Positions 28,331 to 48,612 of a stretch of DNA of 64,000 nucleotides are shown here, piece after piece. Made by a program: the position numbers and the translations under genes. This stretch comes from Balneolaceae bacterium (GTDB lineage: Bacteria; Bacteroidota; Rhodothermia; Balneolales; Balneolaceae), in the NCBI GenBank assembly GCA_017640605.1, contig JAEPQH010000007.1:124001-188000 (forward strand). Direction: 5' to 3'. Numbering within the stretch: the first letter of the stretch is position 1; every line of letters starts with the position of its first letter. The notes under the pieces were generated by a model. That model saw only the letters and a program-made list of their open reading frames with translations. It had not been told where the DNA came from and did not search any database.

Positions 28331-28906
28331 TTAATTTTGTAGTCGTCGAATAGTAGCTTTGATTGGATTATTTCTGATATAATCTTCTATCCGGAGGAGT
28401 TCATGTTCATCTCTAACTATTCGATCATGAAAACTTTTTTGCCATGAAAAATGCGGATGTTGTAAACGAATTCTTTTGGTACATGAGGCTTTGAAACTTC
28501 TAACCAAAGCAGATAAGTTTTTAGATTGAGGACCAAATTTGTTTTTATAGGGTACAGCCAGTAACGGCGCATGGCCATGCGCTTTTACTGTGTTAGTACG
28601 ATAATTACCAGTAGTACTTTTATCCAATAATTGCTTATCAATGAGCAGAAGGGCATGAAAATGATCAGGCATAATTACAAATTCACCTAATGTAATCTCT
28701 TTGCGGATATCTGAAGTTTTTAGCCATTCTTCATTCACTATTTTCCCAAGTGAATTTAAGTGCACCTCATTATCGTTAATCTCACCAAAGAAGTGCTCCC
28801 GGTTCTTCGTGTTGATAGTGATGAAGTACATTCCTTCATTCGAATAATCATACCCTTGAAGTCGATACGATCTCTTACGGTTATATGTATTCTGATTACG
28901 ATGCAC
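28331..28906 (-). CDS. REP-associated tyrosine transposase (RAYT, Y1 family)
   Basis: 191 residues. The single-strand endonuclease fold has the typical N-terminus SYRLQGYDYSNEGMYFITIN, the HUH motif in MPDHFHALLLI and the catalytic tyrosine in RIEDYIRNNPIKA. RAYTs are domesticated relatives of IS200/IS605 transposases, usually single-copy and acting on palindromic REP elements. The GTG start at 28906 shares one base with the deoC stop and no upstream start is possible because of a stop at 28912. No inverted-repeat ends flank the gene. It is placed between deoC and the ALDH and in their direction, so it is probably co-expressed with them. Confidence 0.9.
   Translation of the reverse strand: MHRNQNTYNRKRSYRLQGYDYSNEGMYFITINTKNREHFFGEINDNEVHLNSLGKIVNEEWLKTSDIRKEITLGEFVIMPDHFHALLLIDKQLLDKSTTGNYRTNTVKAHGHAPLLAVPYKNKFGPQSKNLSALVRSFKASCTKRIRLQHPHFSWQKSFHDRIVRDEHELLRIEDYIRNNPIKATIRRLQN
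28567..28582. repeat. 16-bp perfect palindrome inside the RAYT gene
   Basis: GCGCATGGCCATGCGC reads the same on both strands and encodes AHGHAP in the middle of the RAYT. It is GC-rich in an AT-rich gene and sits in the variable segment between the HUH and tyrosine motifs, so it may be a REP-like sequence carried within the gene. Confidence 0.6.
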
Positions 28907-35465: not shown

Positions 35466-36515
35466 TTATCGGCTTAACAGTGAATCTACGTTCGAATCTT
35501 GATCTAACTCATTAGCTAAAAACTGAAAATTGAGTCGGAATTTGTCGGTAGTATCCAAGGTGTAGGTACACTCAAGTTGCTGAAGCTGTAATTTAACAAG
35601 AGTTTGTCCGAGATTTGTAGAATTCTCGAACGATTCGCCGGTTGCATAACCATTGCCATCATCTTCATAAATAAATCGTAGTTCTCGACCAACAGCTGCC
35701 ATGCTGATGTATATGTTGCCTTCAGTTCGATTCACAAAGGCATATTTAACACTATTAGTAAGTAATTCATTAAACATCAATCCGAGCGGGATGGATTGAT
35801 TCATATCTAAACGATAATCGGGGACATCCAAATGCAGATGAATGGTACGATCGCCTTGCAAGGTTTTTTGAATGCTTGGAAGGATACGACCCAAATATTT
35901 GCTGATGTTAACCGCATCCATATCGTTAGAATCATAAATGAGTTCATGCACTTTGGCGATAGAATGCACTCGATTAATACTCTGCTGAAAAGGTAGTTTT
36001 AAACTAGGATCGTTAAACTCGTTCACCTGAAGTTCTAACAAACTTGAAATGATGGTTAAGTTGTTTTTAACTCGATGATGAATTTCGGCGAGTAGGATGG
36101 AAGCTTTATCCTGCAAATAATACTGCTGAAGGCCACGATCGACGGTAAGAAGAAAATCGTCTTCGTTCCAAGGTTTGGTTAGATAGCGGTACAAGTCGGC
36201 CTTATTGATCGCGTTCATAGCAGAATCGAGCGCTGCCTGACCTGTTAAAAGAATTTTGATACTTTTTGGATGCGACTCGTGGAATTGCGTGAGGAATTCA
36301 TCGCCATACATGCCCGGCATAATTTGATCAGAAATAGCCATAACCACGGTTTGGCCCATTTCGTCTAACTCTTCCACAATTTCAAGAGCTTCTTCGCCAC
36401 TTTCAGCGAATTCGTACTCAAATCGGGTTCCAAACTTTCTGATCAGCTGTTTGCTTAACGAATTCAGAATGATCTGTTCATCATCTATGCAAAGAATCAC
36501 ATCCTTTTTATTCAT
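35466..36515 (-). CDS. REC-HisKA_2 histidine kinase (no PAS)
   Basis: 349 residues. Receiver 1-125 with CIDDEQIIL, Asp63 in AISDQIMPGMYGDE and YRYLTKPWNEDDF, then directly the HisKA_2 core [20 protein letters not shown] near residue 145, N-box NELLTNSVKYAF and DDGNGYATG. It is a nearly collinear paralogue of the kinase at 40769-41821. It overlaps the HAMP kinase gene by 8 bp and is the last gene of the 40101-35466 operon, so the HAMP kinase is its probable phosphodonor. There is no DNA-binding output, so the signal leaves through its own kinase domain. Confidence 0.92.
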   Translation of the reverse strand: MNKKDVILCIDDEQIILNSLSKQLIRKFGTRFEYEFAESGEEALEIVEELDEMGQTVVMAISDQIMPGMYGDEFLTQFHESHPKSIKILLTGQAALDSAMNAINKADLYRYLTKPWNEDDFLLTVDRGLQQYYLQDKASILLAEIHHRVKNNLTIISSLLELQVNEFNDPSLKLPFQQSINRVHSIAKVHELIYDSNDMDAVNISKYLGRILPSIQKTLQGDRTIHLHLDVPDYRLDMNQSIPLGLMFNELLTNSVKYAFVNRTEGNIYISMAAVGRELRFIYEDDGNGYATGESFENSTNLGQTLVKLQLQQLECTYTLDTTDKFRLNFQFLANELDQDSNVDSLLSR

Positions 36516-38418
36516 AATTAAGCTCCGTATCTAAAGGTTCTGTACCCGACTCATCCTCGTCTTGTTTTTTATTATCGGCCACTTTATGTGGAATAATAAC
36601 CGGAATTTTCACGATAAAACGAGTACGTCCGGGTTCTGATTCAACATCGATTGTACCTGAGTGATCGTTAATGATTTCTTTGCTGATACTAAGTCCAAGT
36701 CCGGTTCCTTCACCTTTGGCATTCGTGGTAAAGTAAGGATCAAAAATACTGCTTAGATTCTCTTCCGGTATGCCAGGGCCATTATCTTCAACTTCCACAG
36801 AAACCCAATCTTCATCAATATTTTTAAGTCGAATTATGATGGTACCACTGCCTTTCATAGCCTGAATGGAATTATGTATCAGGTTTGTCCACACTTGATT
36901 TAGGCGACCCGGATAACATTTTACATTCGGAACTTCTTCAAACTCTTTTTCTATAGTAATTGCTCGTTTCGTCTTGTTGTGCAGAATAATGAGTGTATTT
37001 TCAAGATCATCTTTCAACGAGGTATAAGATTCAGTTTCATTATCTACCCGGGAATAGGTTTTCAATGCTTTTACTAATTGAATAATTCTTGAAATTGCGA
37101 TTCGAATATCACGAACATGAATCTGCGACATCCCGATATTATGAAATGAGTTAATGACCATTGGGCCGAGTTCATCTTCAAACAGAGGCTTAATCTCATC
37201 AACATTTTCTGCCGTAAACCCAACCTGAGCAAGCAAACGGCTGTAAAAAGCGGCATCCATCATCGAAAAGATTGAATCAACTTTTTTGATTTTGCGAGCT
37301 TCCTTTCTCACTTCAGAAGTAGTCAGAGTTTTTTCGGCTCCGATAATTTGCTTGCAGGTGTTTAAGTACAACACCTTTTTAGAATTAGGCAGTGCTTCGG
37401 TAACAACTATTAAATCGTTTAGTATGTCGATGTAATCGCGATTAATCTCATCGATAGCACTATTGATTGCACCGGAAGGGGTATTTATTTCGTGTGCAAC
37501 ACTTGCTACCAATTGGCCTAAAGCAGCCATTTTTTCTGATTGAACAAGCTGAACCTGTGCATTTTTCAGATCATCTAAGGTATTGGTAGCACGTTCTTTT
37601 TCTTTCTGTAATTGAATACTTTGATTTTCTAACTTAGTGAATGCCCTAGACAAACTTTTATTCCGTTCAGCAAGGGACACATTAAATTGCTCCATCTCCA
37701 AAATTCGCTGCTTTTGCGTTTCAATAAGTGTATCGAGCATGGTATTGAAAGATCGCGCGAGAACTTTAATTTCTACACTACCTTGTGAGTCATCCGCTCT
37801 TAATTCAGGATTTTCAGCCGAGAATTCCTCGGCCACTCTTTTTAAAGATTCAACAGGTTTTGTAATGTTTTTTGCCACTACATACGCGCAAAAAGAAGCA
37901 CCGATAGCAATGAGGATGGTTAAAAACGTTAGATTTATGTTTGCCTCTTTTTGCGAATCTTTAATGTAATCTGTATTAAACACCATATAAATTTGACCGT
38001 TGCCAGAAATAGAAGAAAACCATTGTATTTGTTTTACAAACCGATCAGATCCCTTATGAAAAGAACGGGGAGTTTCACTTAAATCGATGTTTTCTGAATC
38101 TATCGTGTCAGGGTAACTTGCTAGTAACTCCTGGTATTCGTCATAGATTAGTATATAATCAATATTTTGGTTTCTGGTTGCCCACGAAAAAACTTCACTA
38201 ATACTTTCGAAATTCTCCTCGCGTAGTCCAATTTCAAGACCAAGTCGGACCGCTTCTAACTGGATTTGTGCACTAGAATTATATTCTTTGTAGACTAGTT
38301 TGTTTTGAATAGTGCCGTTTAAATACGCAAACAAAACGGTTGCAATTACTGTAATGGAGGCAACTACAAGTATAAGTTGGTGTTTTAATGGGATATTTAT
38401 GTTTGTATTAGAGATCAT
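36508..38418 (-). CDS. membrane HAMP-HisKA histidine kinase
   Basis: 636 residues from ATG 38418 (a TTG four codons upstream is possible). TM1 at about 12-34 (QLILVVASITVIATVLFAYL), a periplasmic sensor region of about 130 residues, TM2 near 170-190 (LTFLTILIAIGASFCAYVVA), HAMP domain (NITKPVESLKRVAEEFSAEN), coiled coil, HisKA motif GQLVASVAHEINTPSGAINS, an unusually long insertion before the ATPase, then N-box NQVWTNLIHNSIQAM, G1 DNGPGIPEEN, F FDPYFTTN and G2 GEGTGLGLSISK. It starts inside the end of the PBP-like gene, so a periplasmic solute-binding protein as its sensor partner is likely. Confidence 0.92.
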   Translation of the reverse strand: MISNTNINIPLKHQLILVVASITVIATVLFAYLNGTIQNKLVYKEYNSSAQIQLEAVRLGLEIGLREENFESISEVFSWATRNQNIDYILIYDEYQELLASYPDTIDSENIDLSETPRSFHKGSDRFVKQIQWFSSISGNGQIYMVFNTDYIKDSQKEANINLTFLTILIAIGASFCAYVVAKNITKPVESLKRVAEEFSAENPELRADDSQGSVEIKVLARSFNTMLDTLIETQKQRILEMEQFNVSLAERNKSLSRAFTKLENQSIQLQKEKERATNTLDDLKNAQVQLVQSEKMAALGQLVASVAHEINTPSGAINSAIDEINRDYIDILNDLIVVTEALPNSKKVLYLNTCKQIIGAEKTLTTSEVRKEARKIKKVDSIFSMMDAAFYSRLLAQVGFTAENVDEIKPLFEDELGPMVINSFHNIGMSQIHVRDIRIAISRIIQLVKALKTYSRVDNETESYTSLKDDLENTLIILHNKTKRAITIEKEFEEVPNVKCYPGRLNQVWTNLIHNSIQAMKGSGTIIIRLKNIDEDWVSVEVEDNGPGIPEENLSSIFDPYFTTNAKGEGTGLGLSISKEIINDHSGTIDVESEPGRTRFIVKIPVIIPHKVADNKKQDEDESGTEPLDTELNYE

Positions 38419-38860
38419 TGCTAATCTCAAATAATATCCTCATATCCGGGCTCACTCTGGAAGTTGGAACATACCCAATAGTCCCGGGCAAGTCGGTCAC
38501 AGCTTCAATCATTTCAGCCACAGAGTTCACTACGTTTGGTGGAATCGACTTTCCTGTGAACTGAGCTCTAAGCCAGATTTTCTTAATTTTGGAAGGGGTT
38601 AAATCAAGCTTCGAGTAAAACCGAATCCTTAGGTAATTATCACCTTTGTAATCTGCCAGACGAATTCGGTTTCCATCTTTCCAATTCAAAGTGTTTAAGG
38701 TATAAAATGCTTTTAACTGAGCGATATTTATAGCATCAGTTTCAATGCTTTCATGTACCACAATCGAGATTGATTCTTCTGAATACTGTGCTTCCAGAAG
38801 CGAAGGCTCAGTTACACTCGTCAAAATAAATACGAAACAAAATAAGGAGAAGGTTTTCAT
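38408..38860 (-). CDS. small periplasmic PBP-like protein (phosphate-binding type)
   Basis: 150 residues with a signal peptide (MKTFSLFCFVFILTSVTEPS). The rest resembles one lobe of PstS-type substrate-binding proteins (PBP_like_2): IVVHESIETDAINIAQLKAF, YTLNTLNWKDGNRIRLADYK and DLPGTIGYVPTSRV. It is about half the size of a full binding protein and no ABC permease is present. It shares a base with the barrel gene upstream and overlaps the HAMP kinase downstream, so it probably delivers a ligand signal to the kinase and does not feed a transporter (inference). Confidence 0.78.
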   Translation of the reverse strand: MKTFSLFCFVFILTSVTEPSLLEAQYSEESISIVVHESIETDAINIAQLKAFYTLNTLNWKDGNRIRLADYKGDNYLRIRFYSKLDLTPSKIKKIWLRAQFTGKSIPPNVVNSVAEMIEAVTDLPGTIGYVPTSRVSPDMRILFEISNDL

Positions 38861-40101
38861 CAGAATATGGTACTTATGCCAACAGTAAGCATGTTAAAGT
38901 TGTATTCCAGATATTCGTTTTTATTTAAACTACTCCTTAGGAGCTGTAGTTTGAACGCAGTAACCTCATTTATTCGCCAGCCTCCGCCTAGTGAGATGAT
39001 GTTAATTCCTGCTCTTGATGGCGAGTTAGGTGCTACAAATTCGTATGTGTAATCTTTATTGGTAGAGTAATAACCGAATGCGTAAAGTTTTTCAGAAAAA
39101 TCATAAGTGAGATTCCCATAAAAGAAATATTTATTAAGCTTAGCTGTCCTAAATGCTTCTTTTTTTCTGATTTTAGAATGATCATGAAAAGCTCCCATAT
39201 ATTCAGATTCGAAAGAAAAATTCTTAATGGTAAAGGAAAGATCGACACCTAACCGATAACGAGCTACTTCTCCAAGCACCGGAGTTGTTAGCTGGGGTAA
39301 TCTAAATACTGAGTTTTCTGTTTTGGTTTTATTGTCCTCATCAAAAGTAAAAGAAACCCCCATTTTTTTTGTACTTATAAAATTTTCGATGCCTATTCTT
39401 CCACCAAAAAGGAGTGCGGTGTTAAGATTTTCACCGCGATAGAGTGTAGTATTTTCTTCTTCTGCCCCTAACTCGTTAGATCTAATCGACGATAAAAAAG
39501 AATTTTCAGCATTGCCTATATAAAATGCATAATCAAAAATGTAATTCTTGAATACATTATTACTCCCACTTAATTGTACGTATGCATTTTGTGGTTTGTA
39601 GTCTTCCGGTTTAAAAATATTACTGAAAAGTGTCTCGTAAACGATGGGTCTTATTATATAAGGGAATAAAGGAAGTCGGTTTTTTATTTCTGTAAGATTA
39701 TTAAACTTTGGGAGGAGTAAGCCCGTCTTTAGCAATAAATTTTCATTTAATTTGAATGAGATCCAGCCTTCGGGTATCTCAAACTCTCCACTTGGTAGCC
39801 TGGATGAGTATGAACCGGAAGCTTCGAAATTGAGGAAGAAGGTGGTTTTATTGTTGATTGATTTTTGAAAGAAAAGATTTACCTGATGGAGAGCAAACGT
39901 GGAGGTTTTGGAACTTATCGAATAGCCAGCGGGAAATAGGGTATTGGGATAAATATTCGAATCTAGTTGACGGTGATTGAATATAATCTGAGAGAACCCA
40001 AAAATGTATAAATCATCGTCATTAACTTGACTAAAGGCGTTGTTATTTACCTGTGTAAGAATGGTCAATAACAAGATTAAACCAACTATTCTGTTACTCA
40101 T
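38860..40101 (-). CDS. outer-membrane beta-barrel protein (porin-like)
   Basis: 413 residues with a signal peptide ending near NNAFSQ. The rest is built from alternating hydrophobic and polar strands with many aromatic ends (STFALHQVNLFFQKSINNKT, TFFLNFEASGSYSS, EGWISFKLNENLLLKTGLLL, YFFYGNLTYDFSEKLYAFGY), ending in NFNMLTVGISTIF with the C-terminal aromatic of barrel proteins. The LLLKTGLLLPKFN segment resembles phosphate/anion porin-like proteins. It is the first gene of the PBP-kinase operon, preceded by a sigma-28-like promoter. Confidence 0.8.
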   Translation of the reverse strand: MSNRIVGLILLLTILTQVNNNAFSQVNDDDLYIFGFSQIIFNHRQLDSNIYPNTLFPAGYSISSKTSTFALHQVNLFFQKSINNKTTFFLNFEASGSYSSRLPSGEFEIPEGWISFKLNENLLLKTGLLLPKFNNLTEIKNRLPLFPYIIRPIVYETLFSNIFKPEDYKPQNAYVQLSGSNNVFKNYIFDYAFYIGNAENSFLSSIRSNELGAEEENTTLYRGENLNTALLFGGRIGIENFISTKKMGVSFTFDEDNKTKTENSVFRLPQLTTPVLGEVARYRLGVDLSFTIKNFSFESEYMGAFHDHSKIRKKEAFRTAKLNKYFFYGNLTYDFSEKLYAFGYYSTNKDYTYEFVAPNSPSRAGINIISLGGGWRINEVTAFKLQLLRSSLNKNEYLEYNFNMLTVGISTIF

Positions 40102-40232: not shown

Positions 40233-40688
40233 ATGAGAACCTTAATAATTTTGGCTGTATCCCTTTTTATCTTAACAAACTGTAATGACGTTACAGGGTC
40301 TGAAGAAATAAAAACACCAAGTGAAATGATTCTCGGAAAGTGGAAAGTAAGCGAAGCCACTATCGATGGAAGTGTATATCCGGTTACAAACCCTGGATTC
40401 GGTCAAATTGAAGTTACCTTCACTGAAAACGATGTTGAGTATATTTACCCGGGAGTTGATGATAGTGGTATGCCTACTGCTAGTACAGATACCTTGATTG
40501 CCAATTGGCAATTGGAAAATGAGTCAACACTTATTCATATCACGCACCCCATCAACAATGTAACGTTGTTTGAGTGGGAAGTTGTTAATTTAGGAGTGGG
40601 CTTATTAAAAACATCTTTCATTTCACAGTCGCCGCTCGATCAGCAAAGTACGTCAACCTACATTCTTACTTACCAATTGATTGAGTAA
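40233..40688 (+). CDS. lipocalin-like lipoprotein
   Basis: 151 residues with a lipoprotein signal (MRTLIILAVSLFILTNCNDV, lipobox LTNC). The rest is beta-rich: ILGKWKVSEATIDGSVYPVT, EVTFTENDVEYIYPG, LIANWQLENESTLIHI and FEWEVVNLGVGLLKTSF, which matches the lipocalin-like domain of Bacteroidota lipoproteins in pattern. The function is unknown. It lies between two sensory operons and is divergent from the barrel gene, so it may respond to the same signal. Confidence 0.75.
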   Translation: MRTLIILAVSLFILTNCNDVTGSEEIKTPSEMILGKWKVSEATIDGSVYPVTNPGFGQIEVTFTENDVEYIYPGVDDSGMPTASTDTLIANWQLENESTLIHITHPINNVTLFEWEVVNLGVGLLKTSFISQSPLDQQSTSTYILTYQLIE

Positions 40689-40768: not shown

Positions 40769-41821
40769 CTAAGTAAGAATATTTTGAACAGTATTATTTA
40801 ATCTTTTTGCTCGTCCGGTATCAAATGAAAAGTTCAGTTCGAAAGTGTCATTGGTATTTAAGGTATAGATACTTTCCAGCTGTTGCAGCTGAATATTGAC
40901 GAGCATCAGACCAAGAGATTTCGAAGTTCTAAGAGTTCCTTCACTTTCGAAACCGGGGCCGGAATCTTTATAGGTAAAAGCTAATCGTTTTCCATCCACC
41001 TTCATCGAAATCGTAATTTCGCCATCTTTTTGATCATCGAAGGCATATTTAAACGAATTGGTAATCAATTCATTAAAAATTAACCCAAGGGGAATAGCTT
41101 GATTTACCTTCAGGCGATAACTGGGAATATCAAATAGGAAAGTAACTTGTTTGTTGTGGCTGTTTAGTGTTGCTCGAATGGTAGGGACGATTTTCTCGAG
41201 ATATTTTTTGATGTCAACACTCGTCATATCCTCCGATTCATAGATAAGCTCGTGTACTTTTGCGATAGAATTGATACGATTAATGCTTTGCTGAAAGTAG
41301 ATTTTGCTACCAGAATCACTTATCTCGTTCACTTGAAGCTCCAACAAGCAGGTAATAATGGTAAGATTATTTTTTACTCGGTGATGGATTTCTGCAAGTT
41401 GTAGCTCGATATTTTCTTTGATGTAAAACTGCTGAACTCCTCGGGTAACAATGTTGATGAAGTCGGCTTCATCCCAAGGTTTTATCATATAACGGTAAAT
41501 TTCAGCTTCATTGATGGCAACAATCACCGATTCAAAGTCCGATTTACCTGAGAATAAAATTTTAATCACATTTGGGAAAGTTTGGGCAACCTCTGTTAGA
41601 AATTCTGTGCCTTGTTTTCCCGGTAGAATTTGATCGACGATAGTCATAACCAGACGTTTATCCTCGTTCTTCAGATTTGCAAGTAATGTTTCCGCTTCTT
41701 CTGCCGATTCTGCAAACAAGAACTCAAATTGCTCACCAAAATGAGCCTCGAGTTGACCTTTCATCAGTCGTAGGATGATAGGTTCGTCATCGATGCAGAG
41801 GATTACATCTTTTGTATTCAT
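40769..41821 (-). CDS. REC-HisKA_2 histidine kinase (paralogue)
   Basis: 350 residues with the same layout as the kinase at 35466. Receiver with CIDDEPIIL, Asp63 in TIVDQILPGKQGTE and YRYMIKPWDEADF, then HisKA_2 [20 protein letters not shown] near 145, N-box NELITNSFKYAF and DSGPGFESE. The two proteins align end to end, so they come from a duplication, and this copy lies about 4 kb upstream of the operon copy. It has the best sigma-28-like promoter in the window (41872-41898). No output domain is present. Confidence 0.92.
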   Translation of the reverse strand: MNTKDVILCIDDEPIILRLMKGQLEAHFGEQFEFLFAESAEEAETLLANLKNEDKRLVMTIVDQILPGKQGTEFLTEVAQTFPNVIKILFSGKSDFESVIVAINEAEIYRYMIKPWDEADFINIVTRGVQQFYIKENIELQLAEIHHRVKNNLTIITCLLELQVNEISDSGSKIYFQQSINRINSIAKVHELIYESEDMTSVDIKKYLEKIVPTIRATLNSHNKQVTFLFDIPSYRLKVNQAIPLGLIFNELITNSFKYAFDDQKDGEITISMKVDGKRLAFTYKDSGPGFESEGTLRTSKSLGLMLVNIQLQQLESIYTLNTNDTFELNFSFDTGRAKRLNNTVQNILT

Positions 41822-41871
41822 TCTGTACTACCTGTTGTTTATAAAGGGACCTCATTTCACCTTCATAACTT

Positions 41872-41898
41872 TTATCGGCAGTGAATGCGCTAGGTTTA
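41872..41898 (-). promoter_or_regulatory. sigma-28 (FliA)-type promoter
   Basis: On the minus strand TAAA (41898-41895), exactly 15 nt, then GCCGATAA (41879-41872), an exact match to the flagellar sigma-28 consensus TAAA-N15-GCCGATAA. The start codon of the kinase at 41821 is 50 nt downstream. Confidence 0.6.
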
Positions 41899-41927
41899 AT
41901 TAGAATTAAAAAAATAATTAACGCTAA

Positions 41928-44081
41928 TTAAAAGGAATTTCTGAAACTTAAGGTATAGCTGAAGCCATGGTCGTTTTCAAAGCTTGATGAAGCATCTATT
42001 TGTTTGGTAAGATTTTCTACCAAACTTAATCCCATCGACAGTGATGAGTGTTCCTTAAAATTCTCATCAATTCCACATCCGTTATCGCGGATAGATAGTA
42101 CAATCGACGATTTAAACTTCTTTAGTGATATCCAAAGTTTGGGATCGGGCTCATTTTCAAAAGCATGCTTAAATGCATTCGATACAACTTCATTAACAAT
42201 TAAAGCGCAAGGAAGAGCTTGATTGATATCGAGGTAAAGAGGTTGGAGATCATAATGGATGTCGGCATTTACCTCAGTAAAATGGCTGTCGGTTAACAAT
42301 TGAACCTGATCGCGGATGAATTGCGCAAAGCTGATTTTGGAAAAATCCTGAGATTGATAAAGCTCTTCGTGTATCGTAGCAATACTCTTAATGCGATCCA
42401 TATTGGTAGACAGGCGATCTTTCACTTCTGCATTTTTTGTATCTACAACCTGTAAGTACATTAAACCGGCAACTACCGCAAGATTATTTTTTACCCGGTG
42501 ATGTACTTCTGCAACCAACGCTTCTTTTTCTCTTACTGATTGTTGAATCAATAATTCTTTTTCTTTTCGATCAGAAATATCTTGCACGATACCAATAAAC
42601 CGATCCGGCTCACCCTCGCTATTAAAAACATGTTTGCCGGCAGAATTTAACCAATGGATACTGCCATCATCCCAAACAACGCGATAATCCACGCTATAAA
42701 ACCTATGCTCTTTTAAACTTTCTTGATAAGCTTGGTGAACTTTTTCACGATCATCAGGGTGAATGCAATTAATAAACGTGTCATAATTCCAATTAGGGTG
42801 ATACTCATCAAAGCCAAAACATCGGTCGTGTTCAATGGTGCGTAAGGTTTTTTCTTCTTTGATGTTGTAATCCCAAATTCCAACCTTTGTTGATTCCAAA
42901 ATTACGCGTAATCGTTGCTCGGTAAGTGTTGCTTTGGTCTCGGCCATGTGCAAGTCGGAGATGTCTTTCACAGTAGCGATATAGCTCAAAACATTTCCTT
43001 TGTCGTCACATATTCTGGAAGGAGAAACAATCACCGGGAAAATCTCCCCGTTTTTGCGCTTAAATTTCAATTGAAATTCAACCCTTTCCCCCGACATTAC
43101 CTGCCCGAATGCAGCATTAATTTCGTCGAGGTGTTCCTCCGGCCAATATTTATGAGGTACTCCGGTTCCAATTAATTCGTGTTCTTCGAAGCCTAGCATT
43201 TCACAAAATGCAGAATTGACCACAAGATGATTTCCCTCTAAATCAAGCATAGAAAATCCGTCGTTCATGCTTTCCAGTACATTGGCTGTGAGGTGTTGAG
43301 ACTGTTCCAACTGCAGTTCTGCCTCTTTTCTGCGTGTAACGTCCCGGGAAATCGCAATAATGTATCCTATTTGGTCAATCGTTTCGTAAGTGATCGTAAT
43401 TTCTACCGGAAACTGTTCACCTGTTGTTAGATTGGTATTAGTGCTTTCGAAAATCATTTTTCGGCACTCTTTCATTTCCTCTACGTGGCTATGCCAATCG
43501 TCTCTAGTTTTAAAATCGTCTTCGAAGTCGCAAACATGAGTATTGGTTACTTCGTCTTTTGAAATACCCAGTTGCTTTAAGCCAACGTCGTTTACAAAAA
43601 CTAAATAGCCATCTTCTTTGGCAACCTGAAAAGAATCATAACTATTGTCTAAAAACTTTTTATAGAGCTTGAATATTCGAAGTTCTTCATTTTTAATCTG
43701 TTCGCTATTTACTTGCTCAGTAATATCAGTGAAAAAAACAGATAAGCCATCGGGGGTGGGGTAGATGCGATTCTCGAACCAACGATTCCATGGTTCGAAA
43801 TATTCACGCATGGTTTGCACTTGTTGGGTCTTGAATGCTTCTTTACAAGCTTCATGAAATTTCTTGCCTTCGGCTTCGGGGAAAACCTCCCAAATGGTAG
43901 TTCCAATTAGTTCATCAGCAGATTTGCCGAGCAATGCTCCTGTTACTTGGTTTACGTACGTGTAATTCCACTCTGAATCTAAATGAATAAATCCATCAGA
44001 AATTCTCTCCAATAGCTCTTTTGATGAAATTGGGAAAATCGTTTCTACTTCTACATTCTCTTCTTCGTGAGGTGATTTCAT
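41928..44081 (-). CDS. four-PAS HisKA_2 sensor histidine kinase
   Basis: 717 residues from ATG 44081 (a TTG two codons upstream is the first possible start; AGGG lies 8 nt before the ATG). No membrane segment. Four PAS domains at about 20-125, 140-255, 260-385 and 390-505, each ending in the linker types FFTDITEQV, ISRDVTRRKEAE, VKDISDLHMAE and VQDISDRKEKE. Kinase core [20 protein letters not shown] near 527, N-box NEVVSNAFKHAFEN, G1 DNGCGIDEN. It lacks a receiver, like the 13837 kinase. It could feed the receiver-bearing kinases around it. Confidence 0.92.
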   Translation of the reverse strand: MKSPHEEENVEVETIFPISSKELLERISDGFIHLDSEWNYTYVNQVTGALLGKSADELIGTTIWEVFPEAEGKKFHEACKEAFKTQQVQTMREYFEPWNRWFENRIYPTPDGLSVFFTDITEQVNSEQIKNEELRIFKLYKKFLDNSYDSFQVAKEDGYLVFVNDVGLKQLGISKDEVTNTHVCDFEDDFKTRDDWHSHVEEMKECRKMIFESTNTNLTTGEQFPVEITITYETIDQIGYIIAISRDVTRRKEAELQLEQSQHLTANVLESMNDGFSMLDLEGNHLVVNSAFCEMLGFEEHELIGTGVPHKYWPEEHLDEINAAFGQVMSGERVEFQLKFKRKNGEIFPVIVSPSRICDDKGNVLSYIATVKDISDLHMAETKATLTEQRLRVILESTKVGIWDYNIKEEKTLRTIEHDRCFGFDEYHPNWNYDTFINCIHPDDREKVHQAYQESLKEHRFYSVDYRVVWDDGSIHWLNSAGKHVFNSEGEPDRFIGIVQDISDRKEKELLIQQSVREKEALVAEVHHRVKNNLAVVAGLMYLQVVDTKNAEVKDRLSTNMDRIKSIATIHEELYQSQDFSKISFAQFIRDQVQLLTDSHFTEVNADIHYDLQPLYLDINQALPCALIVNEVVSNAFKHAFENEPDPKLWISLKKFKSSIVLSIRDNGCGIDENFKEHSSLSMGLSLVENLTKQIDASSSFENDHGFSYTLSFRNSF

Positions 44082-44200
44082 GTGCAATCCCTAGCATACA
44101 CTTATCCCGTATGCGGCCTCTCGTTTTTAATATTCTGTACCTTTAAAAAATAACAAGAATAAACGACTAATGATGAGTAGTTGGATAAAATTAATATTCA

Positions 44201-44247: not shown

Positions 44248-45558
44248 TTACTGATCTGTAGAAACTGGATTTTTATTTAAACCGGGTACACGATCAAGAA
44301 ACTCATTGTATAATTCAATTTGTCGGGAAGTCATAGGAATTTGATATCCATCAATAAACACTTCCAATATTTGTGTGGAAGTTTCAAATGGATCGCCTGT
44401 AGCGACAAACAAATTAGCTTTTTTTCCAACTTCGATAGATCCTAATTGATCTTCGAGCCCCATTATTTCAGCAGCATTGATGGTAATTGCCTTTAGAGCT
44501 TCTTCACGGCCCATTCCGTATGCAGCGGCAAAACCTGCGTGATAGGGTAGATTTCGTGAATTCTCGGTATCGTTGGTTCTCAAAGCCACTTTTACACCGG
44601 CTTTCTGCATCACAGATGGGTTTTTGTAAGCCGCATCAAAAGCATCACTACGCCGGGTTGGAACGCTTTGAACCGGACCTGTGATTACAGGAATTCCTGC
44701 ATCAGCAAGTTCATCAGCTACACGCCAACCTTCAGCAACACCTGTGAATACAACATCGGTTAATCCTTTTTCTTGTACCCATTCGATGGCACTGAGAATG
44801 TCTTTCGCTGCATTTACTTCGATGTAAGCTTTCATTTCGCCTTTTACCACACGAGCAAGTGCTTCCATTTCAGGATAATAACGCGCGCCATCGGTTCCTT
44901 CGATTTCGGCATATAATTCGGCTTTATCCCAAGTTTCGTTCAGCGTTTTGAGCGCACGCTCGCGGGCACGATCGGCTTCTTCCTGAGTTTGTCGCCATCT
45001 GCGGCCACTACTTGGAAAATTGATCACCAATCCTTTTGAGCCTGCAAACATCTGATCGGGAGTATAGCCAAATAGATTGATAGTAGCGGCTGTTCCGGGA
45101 AAAACACCGCCTGAAGGTCGCGTAATTACCGTAGTAACACCGCTTACTCGTGTAACAGGAATTGCTTCAGAGTTTGGATTTACAGCGGTGAGTGCTTCCA
45201 TCTGAGGTGTTATATCTCCGAATTCTCGAATATCCTGAGCTTCGGCAATACTTCCGATTTCAACCAATCCAAGCTGTGTGCCGGAATCAATCATACCCGG
45301 GTAGATTTCCTGCCCTTCATAATCAATGACAATAGCATCAGTAGGGATGGTAACATTCGCACCAACTGCTTCGATAATTCCATTAGAAATAACAATGGTT
45401 CCATTTTCAATAACACCATTGGTAACTGTGTAAATGGTAGCATTCGTTAAGGCGAATTTATCAGCTCTCGCTTGTCGCATAATGTCATTTTGAGCGAATG
45501 ACAAGGTTGAGCCCAATACTAAAACAAGGATCGTAAGTAGTAGTTTTGTTGATCTCAT
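44248..45558 (-). CDS. secreted amidohydrolase-like protein lacking metal ligands
   Basis: 436 residues with a signal peptide (to FAQ at about 23). The amidohydrolase fold is clear: composite beta-sandwich (ALTNATIYTVTNGVIENGTI), YPGMIDSGTQLGLVE, and the C-terminal ITINAAEIMGLEDQLGSIEV with GKKANLFVATGDPFE. The usual HxH after PGxIDxH is replaced by SGTQ, the second ligand region reads MKAYIEVNAAKD, and the final aspartate region reads LRTNDTENSR, so the metal centre looks lost. It may be a structural or binding partner of the intact paralogue, whose gene stop overlaps this ATG. Confidence 0.85.
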   Translation of the reverse strand: MRSTKLLLTILVLVLGSTLSFAQNDIMRQARADKFALTNATIYTVTNGVIENGTIVISNGIIEAVGANVTIPTDAIVIDYEGQEIYPGMIDSGTQLGLVEIGSIAEAQDIREFGDITPQMEALTAVNPNSEAIPVTRVSGVTTVITRPSGGVFPGTAATINLFGYTPDQMFAGSKGLVINFPSSGRRWRQTQEEADRARERALKTLNETWDKAELYAEIEGTDGARYYPEMEALARVVKGEMKAYIEVNAAKDILSAIEWVQEKGLTDVVFTGVAEGWRVADELADAGIPVITGPVQSVPTRRSDAFDAAYKNPSVMQKAGVKVALRTNDTENSRNLPYHAGFAAAYGMGREEALKAITINAAEIMGLEDQLGSIEVGKKANLFVATGDPFETSTQILEVFIDGYQIPMTSRQIELYNEFLDRVPGLNKNPVSTDQ

Positions 45559-46925
45559 TATTTCTCCTCGTTAACTAATTCGTAAAAATTCACAATCGAT
45601 TCTTCGTGCATGCACATGTCATGGTCTTCACGGCTAAAGATAACCACATCTTCGATTGTTGATTCCGGGTCAATCATAATACGCTGATCGGCAACATCAG
45701 TATTGATATCGAAATACTTTACTCCGTCCACAAAAGTCATTTGTGGAATGGCATAGGTAGATAAGGGGTGCTTATCAAAAATCGCGATATCACCATCTTT
45801 ACCAACTTCGATTGAACCAACACGATCGTCGATGCCTAACTGCATAGCCGGATTTAATGTGATTAATCGTAGTGCTTCATTATCCGAAAGGCTACCGTAT
45901 TTCTGCGATTTAGCCGCTTCGTGGAAAAGGTGACGAATTAACTCTCCGGAATCGGAATTGATAGAAGTATTTACGCCATTTCTGGTTAGAATAGCTGCAT
46001 TGTATGCCGTAGAGTAATACACCTCTAACTTATAAGCCCACCAATCTGAGAAGATAGACGCTGACGCTCCAAATGCTGCAAGTTCTGGTGCAACTTTGTA
46101 TGCTTCGTTAGCATGCTGAAAGGTTAACTTTTCGATGCCAAAATCAGAGAAAACATTCATCAACATGTAGATTTCATCGGCACGGTAGGAGTGGCAATGA
46201 ACCAAAATTTCACCTTCCAGAATGTCTACCATAGTTTCCATGCGTAAATCATATTCCGGCGCAATTTTACGGTTGCTTCGGTTTGCATTATAAGCGGCCC
46301 ATTCATCGCGGTACTCAATAGCATCGTTAAATGCGTTTCTGATCATAGCTTCCACACCCATACGGGTTTGTGGCTGAATACCTCTCGCTCTACCGCCACG
46401 AGTTGGGTTTTCGCCAAGAGCAAACTTAATAGTTCTAGGCGCTCCTTCGAAGCGTAAATCATCAGGATTGGTGGTTCCGTAACGAAGTTTTAATGTTTCA
46501 TTTTGGCCACCAATAACATTCGCAGAGCCATGCATTAAATGAATGGAAGTTACGCCACCTGCAAGAGCACGGTAAATGGATACATCCATAGGGTTTACCA
46601 CATCTTCCATACTTACTTCGGCTGTAACCTGGCTGGTACCTTCGTTGATGGAAGTTCCTGCAATATGCGAATGCGCATCGATAATACCCGGCATTACAAA
46701 CATACCTTCAGCATCAATTACTTCTACATTGTTAGGCTGACGTAGATTTTGACCGATACTTTTGATTTTACCGTCTTCGATCAGAATATCGGTATCCTCA
46801 AGAGTTCCATTTGTGATGGTCAAAACGGTAGCGTTTTGAATAAGTACATCACCTTTTGGAACCTGAGCAAACACAACTGAGCTAAAGCCCAGTATTAAAA
46901 AGAGATTCAAAATTAATTTCTTCAT
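45558..46925 (-). CDS. secreted amidohydrolase with intact metal site
   Basis: 455 residues with a signal peptide ending near FAQVPK. All ligands of the amidohydrolase superfamily are visible: MPGIIDAHSHIAGTS (HxH), the second-shell LVHCHSY, FQHANEAYK and the aspartate in NSDSGELIRH. The C-terminus has ITLNPAMQLGIDDRVGSIEV and GKDGDIAIFDKHPLS. It probably hydrolyses a cyclic amide or peptide-type bond in the periplasm. The middle position between two ligand-poor paralogues suggests that the three form a hetero-complex (inference). Confidence 0.88.
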   Translation of the reverse strand: MKKLILNLFLILGFSSVVFAQVPKGDVLIQNATVLTITNGTLEDTDILIEDGKIKSIGQNLRQPNNVEVIDAEGMFVMPGIIDAHSHIAGTSINEGTSQVTAEVSMEDVVNPMDVSIYRALAGGVTSIHLMHGSANVIGGQNETLKLRYGTTNPDDLRFEGAPRTIKFALGENPTRGGRARGIQPQTRMGVEAMIRNAFNDAIEYRDEWAAYNANRSNRKIAPEYDLRMETMVDILEGEILVHCHSYRADEIYMLMNVFSDFGIEKLTFQHANEAYKVAPELAAFGASASIFSDWWAYKLEVYYSTAYNAAILTRNGVNTSINSDSGELIRHLFHEAAKSQKYGSLSDNEALRLITLNPAMQLGIDDRVGSIEVGKDGDIAIFDKHPLSTYAIPQMTFVDGVKYFDINTDVADQRIMIDPESTIEDVVIFSREDHDMCMHEESIVNFYELVNEEK

Positions 46926-46932
46926 AGTACTC

Positions 46933-48612
46933 CTAGTTTTCAGGGTCTTGCTTAATGGCCATTAACGGAAAACTGAAATTGAATGCAGCTATTGAAGCCT
47001 CTGCATCATATTCGTTTCCAACAACATCTCCGGTAACAACTATCTCTATGAGCTGTCCGCCGGCATCAAATTCGATATCAAAGGTTAAAACCCCATCTCG
47101 ATAGCTGATGTTATTCATGTCGATGTCCGGATTACCCGCGTCACTGGTCCACACACCTTCAATGGCTCCATCAACATTAGTAAAAATAAGCTGACCGGTT
47201 TGTTCACCTTGCGGTGTGGTAGAAGAGTAGTTCCATGTTCCGATAACGGCGTCTAAAACCTCATCAGAAACTTCTGTTTTACTACCTTCCTTTATTTCGT
47301 ACTCGTATTTATCACCATCAACAAATACCATTTTAACGTCAGAATCTGATGAAAAATAGGGTCCGGTTGTTACAATAGCATTGCCCATTTTCCCGGCTTC
47401 TAAAGTTCCGGTAATATTGTTAATACCCAAAAGTTCTGCAGGATGAGTGGTAAGTGCTGCAAGTGCATCGGTTGAGTCGAAGCCAAATTCCTGTAGAGCA
47501 ATTAAGTTCTTCTTGATTTTTGAATTGCTTACATCCATAGTCGAAAACCCGAACTTTATTCCTGCTGCTTTTAGAGCTGCAAATTGTTCCATGTATCGGT
47601 TGTAGAATTCTAGTCGGCGTGCTTCGAGTTCTGCAACTTCTTCCGATTTGTCCTCATCGTCAATTTCATCAGGTTTTTCTGGAAGATCTAGTGATAAGAA
47701 CACGGATACATTGTTATTATCAAGTTCATCAATAATTTTCCATGATTGTTCTAGATTCCCAATCATTAAGTTGAAACCCATCTCGTTTTGTAAACGCATG
47801 GCTCTTTGTGCTTCAAGAAGCGAAGAGGCATTAAACAACATAGGTTGCGTTTTCTCTACCACCGGATAAAAGGCTTCCAACACTCGATCGTTAGCCGGGC
47901 GAGCTAAACCTGTTGGATTCGAGGCATACATTTCTGTATTTCTCTTAGACAGCTCTGCATTACGGTATATATTTCTCCACTTGGCCATAATCCCTAATGT
48001 ATTTCCTGGGTAAGATCCTGGAGCCCCTACAAATTGTGAAACCGTAGCAACATTTTCTTTGAGCACCATGTGATCGACGTGCTCAACATCCGTAAGCAAA
48101 ACTAAAGAACTTTTTCCGGGAAGCATACGTCCATAGGGAACGGTATGAGAAACGGTAAATCCAAGTTTACGCATGCTTTCAATGCTACTTTCTTCGATAT
48201 TTAATTGCTCAACCACTGATATTTCCGGTGTAATGCCGGCATAATCGTTGGGTGGATCAGGAGTGAATAAATTATTCGGACGTTCCATAGCATCCGGTCG
48301 GCTTGCTCCAGTATTTGACATCCCATCGATGAATCCTGGATAAATCCATAATTCCGTTCCATCTATCACTTGAGCATGATCGGGGATATTTACAGTAGTG
48401 CCTACTGCAGTAATTACTCCGTCTGATATAAGTAGCGTTCCACCTTCAATTTTGGCACCGGGGGATGGTATAATTGTAGCGTTAGTTATTGCATACGTTC
48501 GAGTTACCGGAGATTCACCGGTTGGGTCGCTTTGTGCATTAACTAAAACAGGTGCCATCAAGAAGGGTAGAAGTACGAACAGACGAAAAGAAAGTATTCG
48601 TAGAAGTTTCAT
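46933..48612 (-). CDS. secreted amidohydrolase-like protein with C-terminal beta domain
   Basis: 559 residues with a signal peptide ending near NAQSDP. The fold is again amidohydrolase (ITNATIIPSPGAKIEGGTLL, YPGFIDGMSNTGASRPDAM, LTTHPAELLGINNITGTLEA), but HxH is replaced by GMSN and no clear metal ligands follow, so it is probably inactive as a metal-dependent hydrolase. Residues after about 460 add a beta-rich domain (GTWNYSSTTPQGEQTGQLIF, ... YDAEASIAAFNFSFPL), missing in the other two proteins. It is the first gene of the three, 7 bp upstream of the next. Confidence 0.83.
   Translation of the reverse strand: MKLLRILSFRLFVLLPFLMAPVLVNAQSDPTGESPVTRTYAITNATIIPSPGAKIEGGTLLISDGVITAVGTTVNIPDHAQVIDGTELWIYPGFIDGMSNTGASRPDAMERPNNLFTPDPPNDYAGITPEISVVEQLNIEESSIESMRKLGFTVSHTVPYGRMLPGKSSLVLLTDVEHVDHMVLKENVATVSQFVGAPGSYPGNTLGIMAKWRNIYRNAELSKRNTEMYASNPTGLARPANDRVLEAFYPVVEKTQPMLFNASSLLEAQRAMRLQNEMGFNLMIGNLEQSWKIIDELDNNNVSVFLSLDLPEKPDEIDDEDKSEEVAELEARRLEFYNRYMEQFAALKAAGIKFGFSTMDVSNSKIKKNLIALQEFGFDSTDALAALTTHPAELLGINNITGTLEAGKMGNAIVTTGPYFSSDSDVKMVFVDGDKYEYEIKEGSKTEVSDEVLDAVIGTWNYSSTTPQGEQTGQLIFTNVDGAIEGVWTSDAGNPDIDMNNISYRDGVLTFDIEFDAGGQLIEIVVTGDVVGNEYDAEASIAAFNFSFPLMAIKQDPEN

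Follow-up and report, generated by a model that had tools for sequence, protein, structure and literature searches.

A predicted single-lobe PstS-like protein encoded with an outer-membrane barrel and exchangeable receptors: a candidate trans-envelope sensing module in Balneolaceae

Known systems and layout of the locus

Two described kinds of system resemble the locus analysed here, YfiBNR (TpbB/DgcN) and the SBP-stimulated receptors. In YfiBNR, YfiR binds the periplasmic part of YfiN and thereby represses it, and the outer-membrane protein YfiB sequesters YfiR (PMC3375315; PMC4887326); Yfi relatives have modular, swapped outputs (PMC3375315). In SBP-stimulated receptors, chemoreceptors, kinases and enzymes of c-di-GMP turnover are coupled to a periplasmic binding-protein fold (PMC9602780). 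The present locus shares with YfiBNR an outer-membrane part, a small periplasmic protein as putative regulator, an inner-membrane receptor with HAMP and outputs that vary; the periplasmic domain of the receptor is at best a candidate CHASE8-type domain. It differs in that the regulator is a predicted PstS lobe instead of YfiR/DUF4154, the outer-membrane part is a 413-aa barrel where YfiB is an OmpA/Pal-type lipoprotein, and the output, unlike that of YfiBNR, is a histidine kinase followed by a REC-HisKA_2 kinase. The linkage of fold to receptor is similar to that of the SBP-stimulated receptors; here, however, a single lobe is encoded with an outer-membrane barrel, whereas to our knowledge all SBPs of receptor-stimulating systems are full-size and usually shared with a transporter. 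The front end, consisting of the barrel and a half-size PstS-like protein which we have designated half-PstS, looks like a variant of both Yfi-type tripartite signalling and binding-protein-stimulated receptors. It is apparently undescribed; no publication on a half-size PstS with a porin and a receptor was found in the open-access literature, which, being the only literature covered, is weak evidence.

Analysis of the window (the whole 64,000-nucleotide stretch of DNA under study) revealed a four-gene operon between 35466 and 40101, encoded entirely on the minus strand. The ORFs encoded an outer-membrane, porin-like beta-barrel of 413 aa with a signal peptide (38860-40101), the 150-aa periplasmic half-PstS, made up of a signal peptide and a predicted single PstS lobe (38408-38860), a 636-aa membrane histidine kinase (36508-38418) and a 349-aa REC-HisKA_2 kinase, the presumed downstream partner of the membrane kinase (35466-36515). 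The barrel and half-PstS genes overlapped by 1 bp and the two kinase genes by 8 bp, while the overlap of the half-PstS and kinase genes was 11 bp with the kinase ATG at 38418 and 23 bp with a longer TTG start. The preliminary description, made from the sequence alone, had reported four genes in one direction overlapping by 1, 11 and 8 bp; its coordinates, overlaps and domains were all borne out.

The full four-gene set was present in only one other of the searched genomes, the congener G032; by name, the relatives of the source genome were Fodinibius, Gracilimonas and Balneola. Comparison of the two congeners showed 54% identity for half-PstS, 58% for the barrel, 73% for the sensor domain of the kinase, 78% for the kinase and 89% for the REC-HisKA_2 kinase. 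Between congeners, the envelope-facing parts (54-58%) thus change faster than the kinases (78-89%), and such faster divergence of half-PstS, barrel and sensor is expected for outward-facing receptors.

A second REC-HisKA_2 kinase gene (40769-41821, minus strand), a 53% identical paralogue whose link to the module is unproven, flanked the operon. Together with a PAS-rich HisKA_2 kinase gene it adjoined the module on the same strand (40769-44087), giving three HisKA_2 kinases at the locus; the positions of both neighbours were kept in G032. Between the barrel and these genes, a lipocalin-like lipoprotein gene (Lipocalin_4, slightly under the cut-off) was located at 40233-40688, divergent and pointing away from the barrel, and G032 had a similar-sized gene at this position.

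The half-PstS protein and the barrel

The preliminary description had called the 150-aa protein PstS-like. The window half-PstS had no Pfam match above threshold, and this identity came instead from its relatives and from its fold. The relatives matched PBP_like_2 (E 1e-7) over profile positions 94-190 of 267, and a profile of the half-PstS family retrieved PstS structures, the best being 1twy (1.8e-8). The AF2 model of half-PstS, with 126 mature residues, was a confident single domain (pLDDT 89.6) whose top Foldseek matches were PstS proteins. Alignment of the model with 4gd5 by VIA-align gave a Z of 15.3 and an rmsd of 2.2 Å over 114 residues. On E. coli PstS the alignment covered residues 75-256, which include lobe II, and the model thus predicts half-PstS to be a single PstS lobe (lobe II).

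In PstS, phosphate is held between two lobes. The predicted half-PstS has the lobe II fold of PstS (PBP_like_2) but not its two-lobed, ligand-enclosing build; it consists of one lobe, has lost the anion motif and is without a permease. When aligned through 1twy, the lobe II anion motif S-G-T of E. coli PstS (S139-G140-T141) was N-Y-L in the window half-PstS, and the motif was variable among the 54 half-PstS family members. The N-Y-L of the window copy and the variability of the motif in the family leave a canonical phosphate site unsupported. With a single lobe and these motif data, the earlier suggestion of a phosphate or anion ligand is not supported, and for phosphate it is probably wrong. 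Annotation pipelines label half-PstS as 'phosphate ABC transporter substrate-binding protein', a name that is unsupported here.

The window barrel (413 aa) had no Pfam match, Porin_O_P (PF07396) included. Its homologue in L127 scored above the Porin_4 cut-off and matched Porin_O_P (PF07396, OprO/OprP) weakly and under the cut-off (E 0.029). An AF2 model of the barrel built from eight sequences had a pLDDT of 36 and was discarded.

The membrane kinase, its sensor domain and the REC-HisKA_2 kinase

The membrane kinase was ordered as a TM segment, a periplasmic sensor, a second TM segment, HAMP, a coiled coil, the H-box (H309), an insertion and HATPase_c. It had the transmembrane sensor, HAMP, phosphoacceptor histidine (H309) and intact HATPase N and G boxes of a two-component kinase. 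The REC-HisKA_2 kinase had an intact receiver (D63 and K114) and intact HisKA_2 histidines (H146/H147); its HATPase_c score was under the curated cut-off and the motifs were present. Pfam domains (HAMP and HATPase_c in the former, Response_reg and HisKA_2 in the latter), TM segments and motifs agree with the initial view of a HAMP membrane kinase with a periplasmic sensor and an accompanying receiver-kinase. The REC-HisKA_2 kinase accompanied the module in the two congeneric genomes only.

An unusually long insertion between H-box and ATPase domain had also been claimed for the membrane kinase. The insertion is real (37099-37446, minus strand, limits approximate) but is not unusual for its subfamily; the same arrangement was common to a kinase subfamily with members, mostly ORFs of ~470-520 aa, in 72 of the 128 genomes of the order. 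Three insertion-bearing kinases that were checked (L045, L051 and L059) had an N-terminal cNMP-binding domain. Being common in the order and present also in Leptospira and Paraburkholderia plasmid matches, the insertion was ruled out as a special feature of this kinase.

The periplasmic sensor domain (aa 36-163 of the kinase; 37930-38313, minus strand) was homologous to the sensors of other receptors linked to half-PstS, whatever their output; in a small set, phmmer E values ran from 1e-6 to 1e-16. The first sensor profile (A3) had been built from neighbours of half-PstS, which made it circular for counts of linkage, and the search was therefore repeated with the window sensor domain alone. 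Against 392 Bacteroidota genomes this revealed 12 further matches at E<=1e-3, nine of which had a half-PstS gene within 3.5 kb. The chance expectation is ~2e-4 per match, although the genomes are related and the tiny nominal probability of such linkage cannot be taken at face value. One member of the sensor family, L180, adjoined a full-size Peripla_BP_4 protein.

Matches to CHASE8, which is the periplasmic domain of E. coli DgcN (YfiN), were found in seven of 16 members of the sensor family, all of them weak (best 3e-4). Four distant relatives of the sensor (L183, L185, L187 and L188) had TonB receptor and DUF4154/YfiR proteins as neighbours; the YfiR matches at L183 and L187 were above the Pfam cut-off and those at L185 (3e-4) and L188 (0.003) were weaker, while the neighbour at a fifth tested locus, L186, had no YfiR match. 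These Bacteroidota loci, in which the receptor is a CHASE8-like histidine kinase or chemoreceptor, have the same three-part layout and a homologous sensor, and use a TonB-dependent receptor and YfiR where the window has a porin-like barrel and half-PstS. When the sensor family was compared directly with E. coli DgcN by profile, there was no match; DgcN was retrieved, with 26 bits, by a profile built from the YfiR-linked sensors. The sequence comparisons thus point to an indirect relation of the sensor to CHASE8/YfiN, by way of the YfiR-linked sensors. Since the binding-protein lobe and YfiR appear to fill the same slot beside homologous sensors, recognition by CHASE8-type receptors becomes directly testable.

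A different sensor, of four-helix type, was present on the partner receptors of most Balneolaceae copies, which are chemoreceptors, and on the kinases of L125-L127 (4HB_MCP_1 in L127). In the sensor comparison they formed separate groups. Their presence in part of the family indicates that half-PstS has partner receptors of more than one type and that docking on a CHASE8-like domain could not be its sole mode.

Distribution of the front end and readings of the module

A profile scan of contigs with the half-PstS alignment gave only seven loci, and the counts were therefore taken from the genome search. Across the 392 sampled genomes of the phylum this revealed 42 half-PstS genes in 31 genomes, whose scores and ORF sizes set these genes cleanly apart from full-length PstS. 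A barrel was encoded immediately upstream on the same strand in 41 of 43 half-PstS loci of Bacteroidota (GTDB), and a chemoreceptor, kinase or SpoIIE-phosphatase gene adjoined on the same strand in 31 of the 43. The outputs included chemoreceptors (MCP; L028, L042 and L111-L113), histidine or hybrid kinases (L040, L119 and L128), a SpoIIE phosphatase (L117), a PAS-HisKA_2 kinase (L124) and a kinase followed by a REC-adenylate cyclase (L127). One of the chemoreceptor loci, L042, is in the source genome itself, where contig C9 encoded another barrel/half-PstS pair and, after it, a chemoreceptor whose sensor is of a different type. In Proteobacteria, several plasmids encoded a porin, a 'phosphate ABC transporter substrate-binding protein' and then a chemoreceptor or GGDEF/EAL protein, with varying order and strand. 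The preliminary description had named absence of the four-gene set from relatives as grounds for rejection. This held only in part: the full order was kept in one congener only, but a three-part front end whose output is swapped proved widespread.

The source genome (99.84% complete) encoded one BPD_transp_1 permease protein in all, which has two domains and 550 aa and lies on a different contig, and so has no separate PstC and PstA. Among 18 genomes checked, no such permease was found near half-PstS, the closest being 13 kb away (G195). The view that the locus lacks an ABC permease and serves signalling instead of transport was upheld, as no permease was adjacent in the window or in relatives and the barrel/half-PstS pair was repeatedly linked to receptors with differing outputs. 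A transport role is unlikely. The same front end driving chemoreceptors, phosphatases and other kinases in relatives gives it the look of a trans-envelope sensing module and not of a nutrient transporter.

By analogy with YfiBNR, we favour a Yfi-type trans-envelope sensing relay in which a single PstS lobe takes the place of YfiR and the outputs are exchangeable, with a probability of roughly 0.6. The porin-like barrel would admit a solute to the periplasm or sense the cell surface, and the exported half-PstS would bind either the barrel or some small ligand. One state of half-PstS may dock on the CHASE8-like sensor of the inner-membrane receptor, as either repressor or activator; we infer this docking and the direction of control, as we do the role of the barrel and the ligand. 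The signal could then run via TM2 and HAMP to H309 of the kinase, which would probably phosphorylate D63 of the adjacent REC-HisKA_2 kinase, and this in turn would act on a response regulator. Elsewhere the same front end would drive chemoreceptors, hybrid kinases, a SpoIIE phosphatase and GGDEF/EAL proteins. Sequence data establish the gene order, the domains, the connection of half-PstS with this sensor domain, the exchange of outputs and the lack of a permease, and the model predicts the single lobe. Counting against the relay are the four-helix-type sensors in part of the family, the barrel/half-PstS pairs that have no receptor beside them, the indirect relation of the sensor to CHASE8/YfiN and the restriction of the REC-HisKA_2 kinase to two congeneric genomes. 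The wider proposal, to which we give even odds, is that half of an ABC binding protein became a dedicated signalling adaptor between an outer-membrane barrel and exchangeable inner-membrane receptors (kinases, chemoreceptors, SpoIIE phosphatases and c-di-GMP enzymes), evolutionarily interchangeable with YfiR, and that it represents an undescribed, widespread class in Bacteroidota and Proteobacteria. If this interpretation is right, many genomes carry, under a wrong label, a sensor front end through which information from the outer membrane or periplasm reaches chemotaxis, kinases or c-di-GMP.

Three other readings compete with the Yfi-type relay. Classical ligand sensing, in which the barrel admits phosphate or a small anion and the loaded half-PstS activates the kinase, would agree with the lobe II fold of half-PstS, with the scores of the L127 barrel homologue against Porin_4 and, weakly, Porin_O_P, and with the stimulation of receptors by ligand-loaded SBPs as a known general mechanism (PMC9602780). 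PstS encloses phosphate between two lobes, however, and half-PstS provides one, with N-Y-L for S-G-T in the window copy and a motif that the family does not conserve; we consider this reading unlikely. Less probable still is that the barrel and half-PstS form an uptake or porin-gating pair, with the adjacent receptors sensing the same nutrient separately. In favour of this, some barrel/half-PstS pairs are orphans with no receptor gene beside them (L033, L036, L038 and L039); the single BPD permease protein of a source genome without a PstC/PstA pair, the permease result of 0 of 18 genomes, the gene overlaps and the sensor-half-PstS linkage (9 of 12) argue against it. That the operon is four unrelated genes held together by chance in this genus only is very improbable. 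Its exact four-gene order was found in one other genome only, but the three-part order with swapped outputs recurs across families and phyla, which refutes chance for the first three genes only.

Several loci had further features. In Gracilimonas (L031, genome G022), one chemoreceptor gene was preceded by three tandem barrel/half-PstS pairs. On the Alteromonas plasmids L136 and L140, half-PstS and a downstream barrel-sized gene adjoined a type IV CRISPR (csf) locus. Elsewhere in the window, a Y1_Tnp (IS200-like/REP-type) transposase ORF was encoded on the minus strand at 28331-28906, and three consecutive amidohydrolase-like genes were found at 44248-48612, with a one-base overlap between the first and the second.
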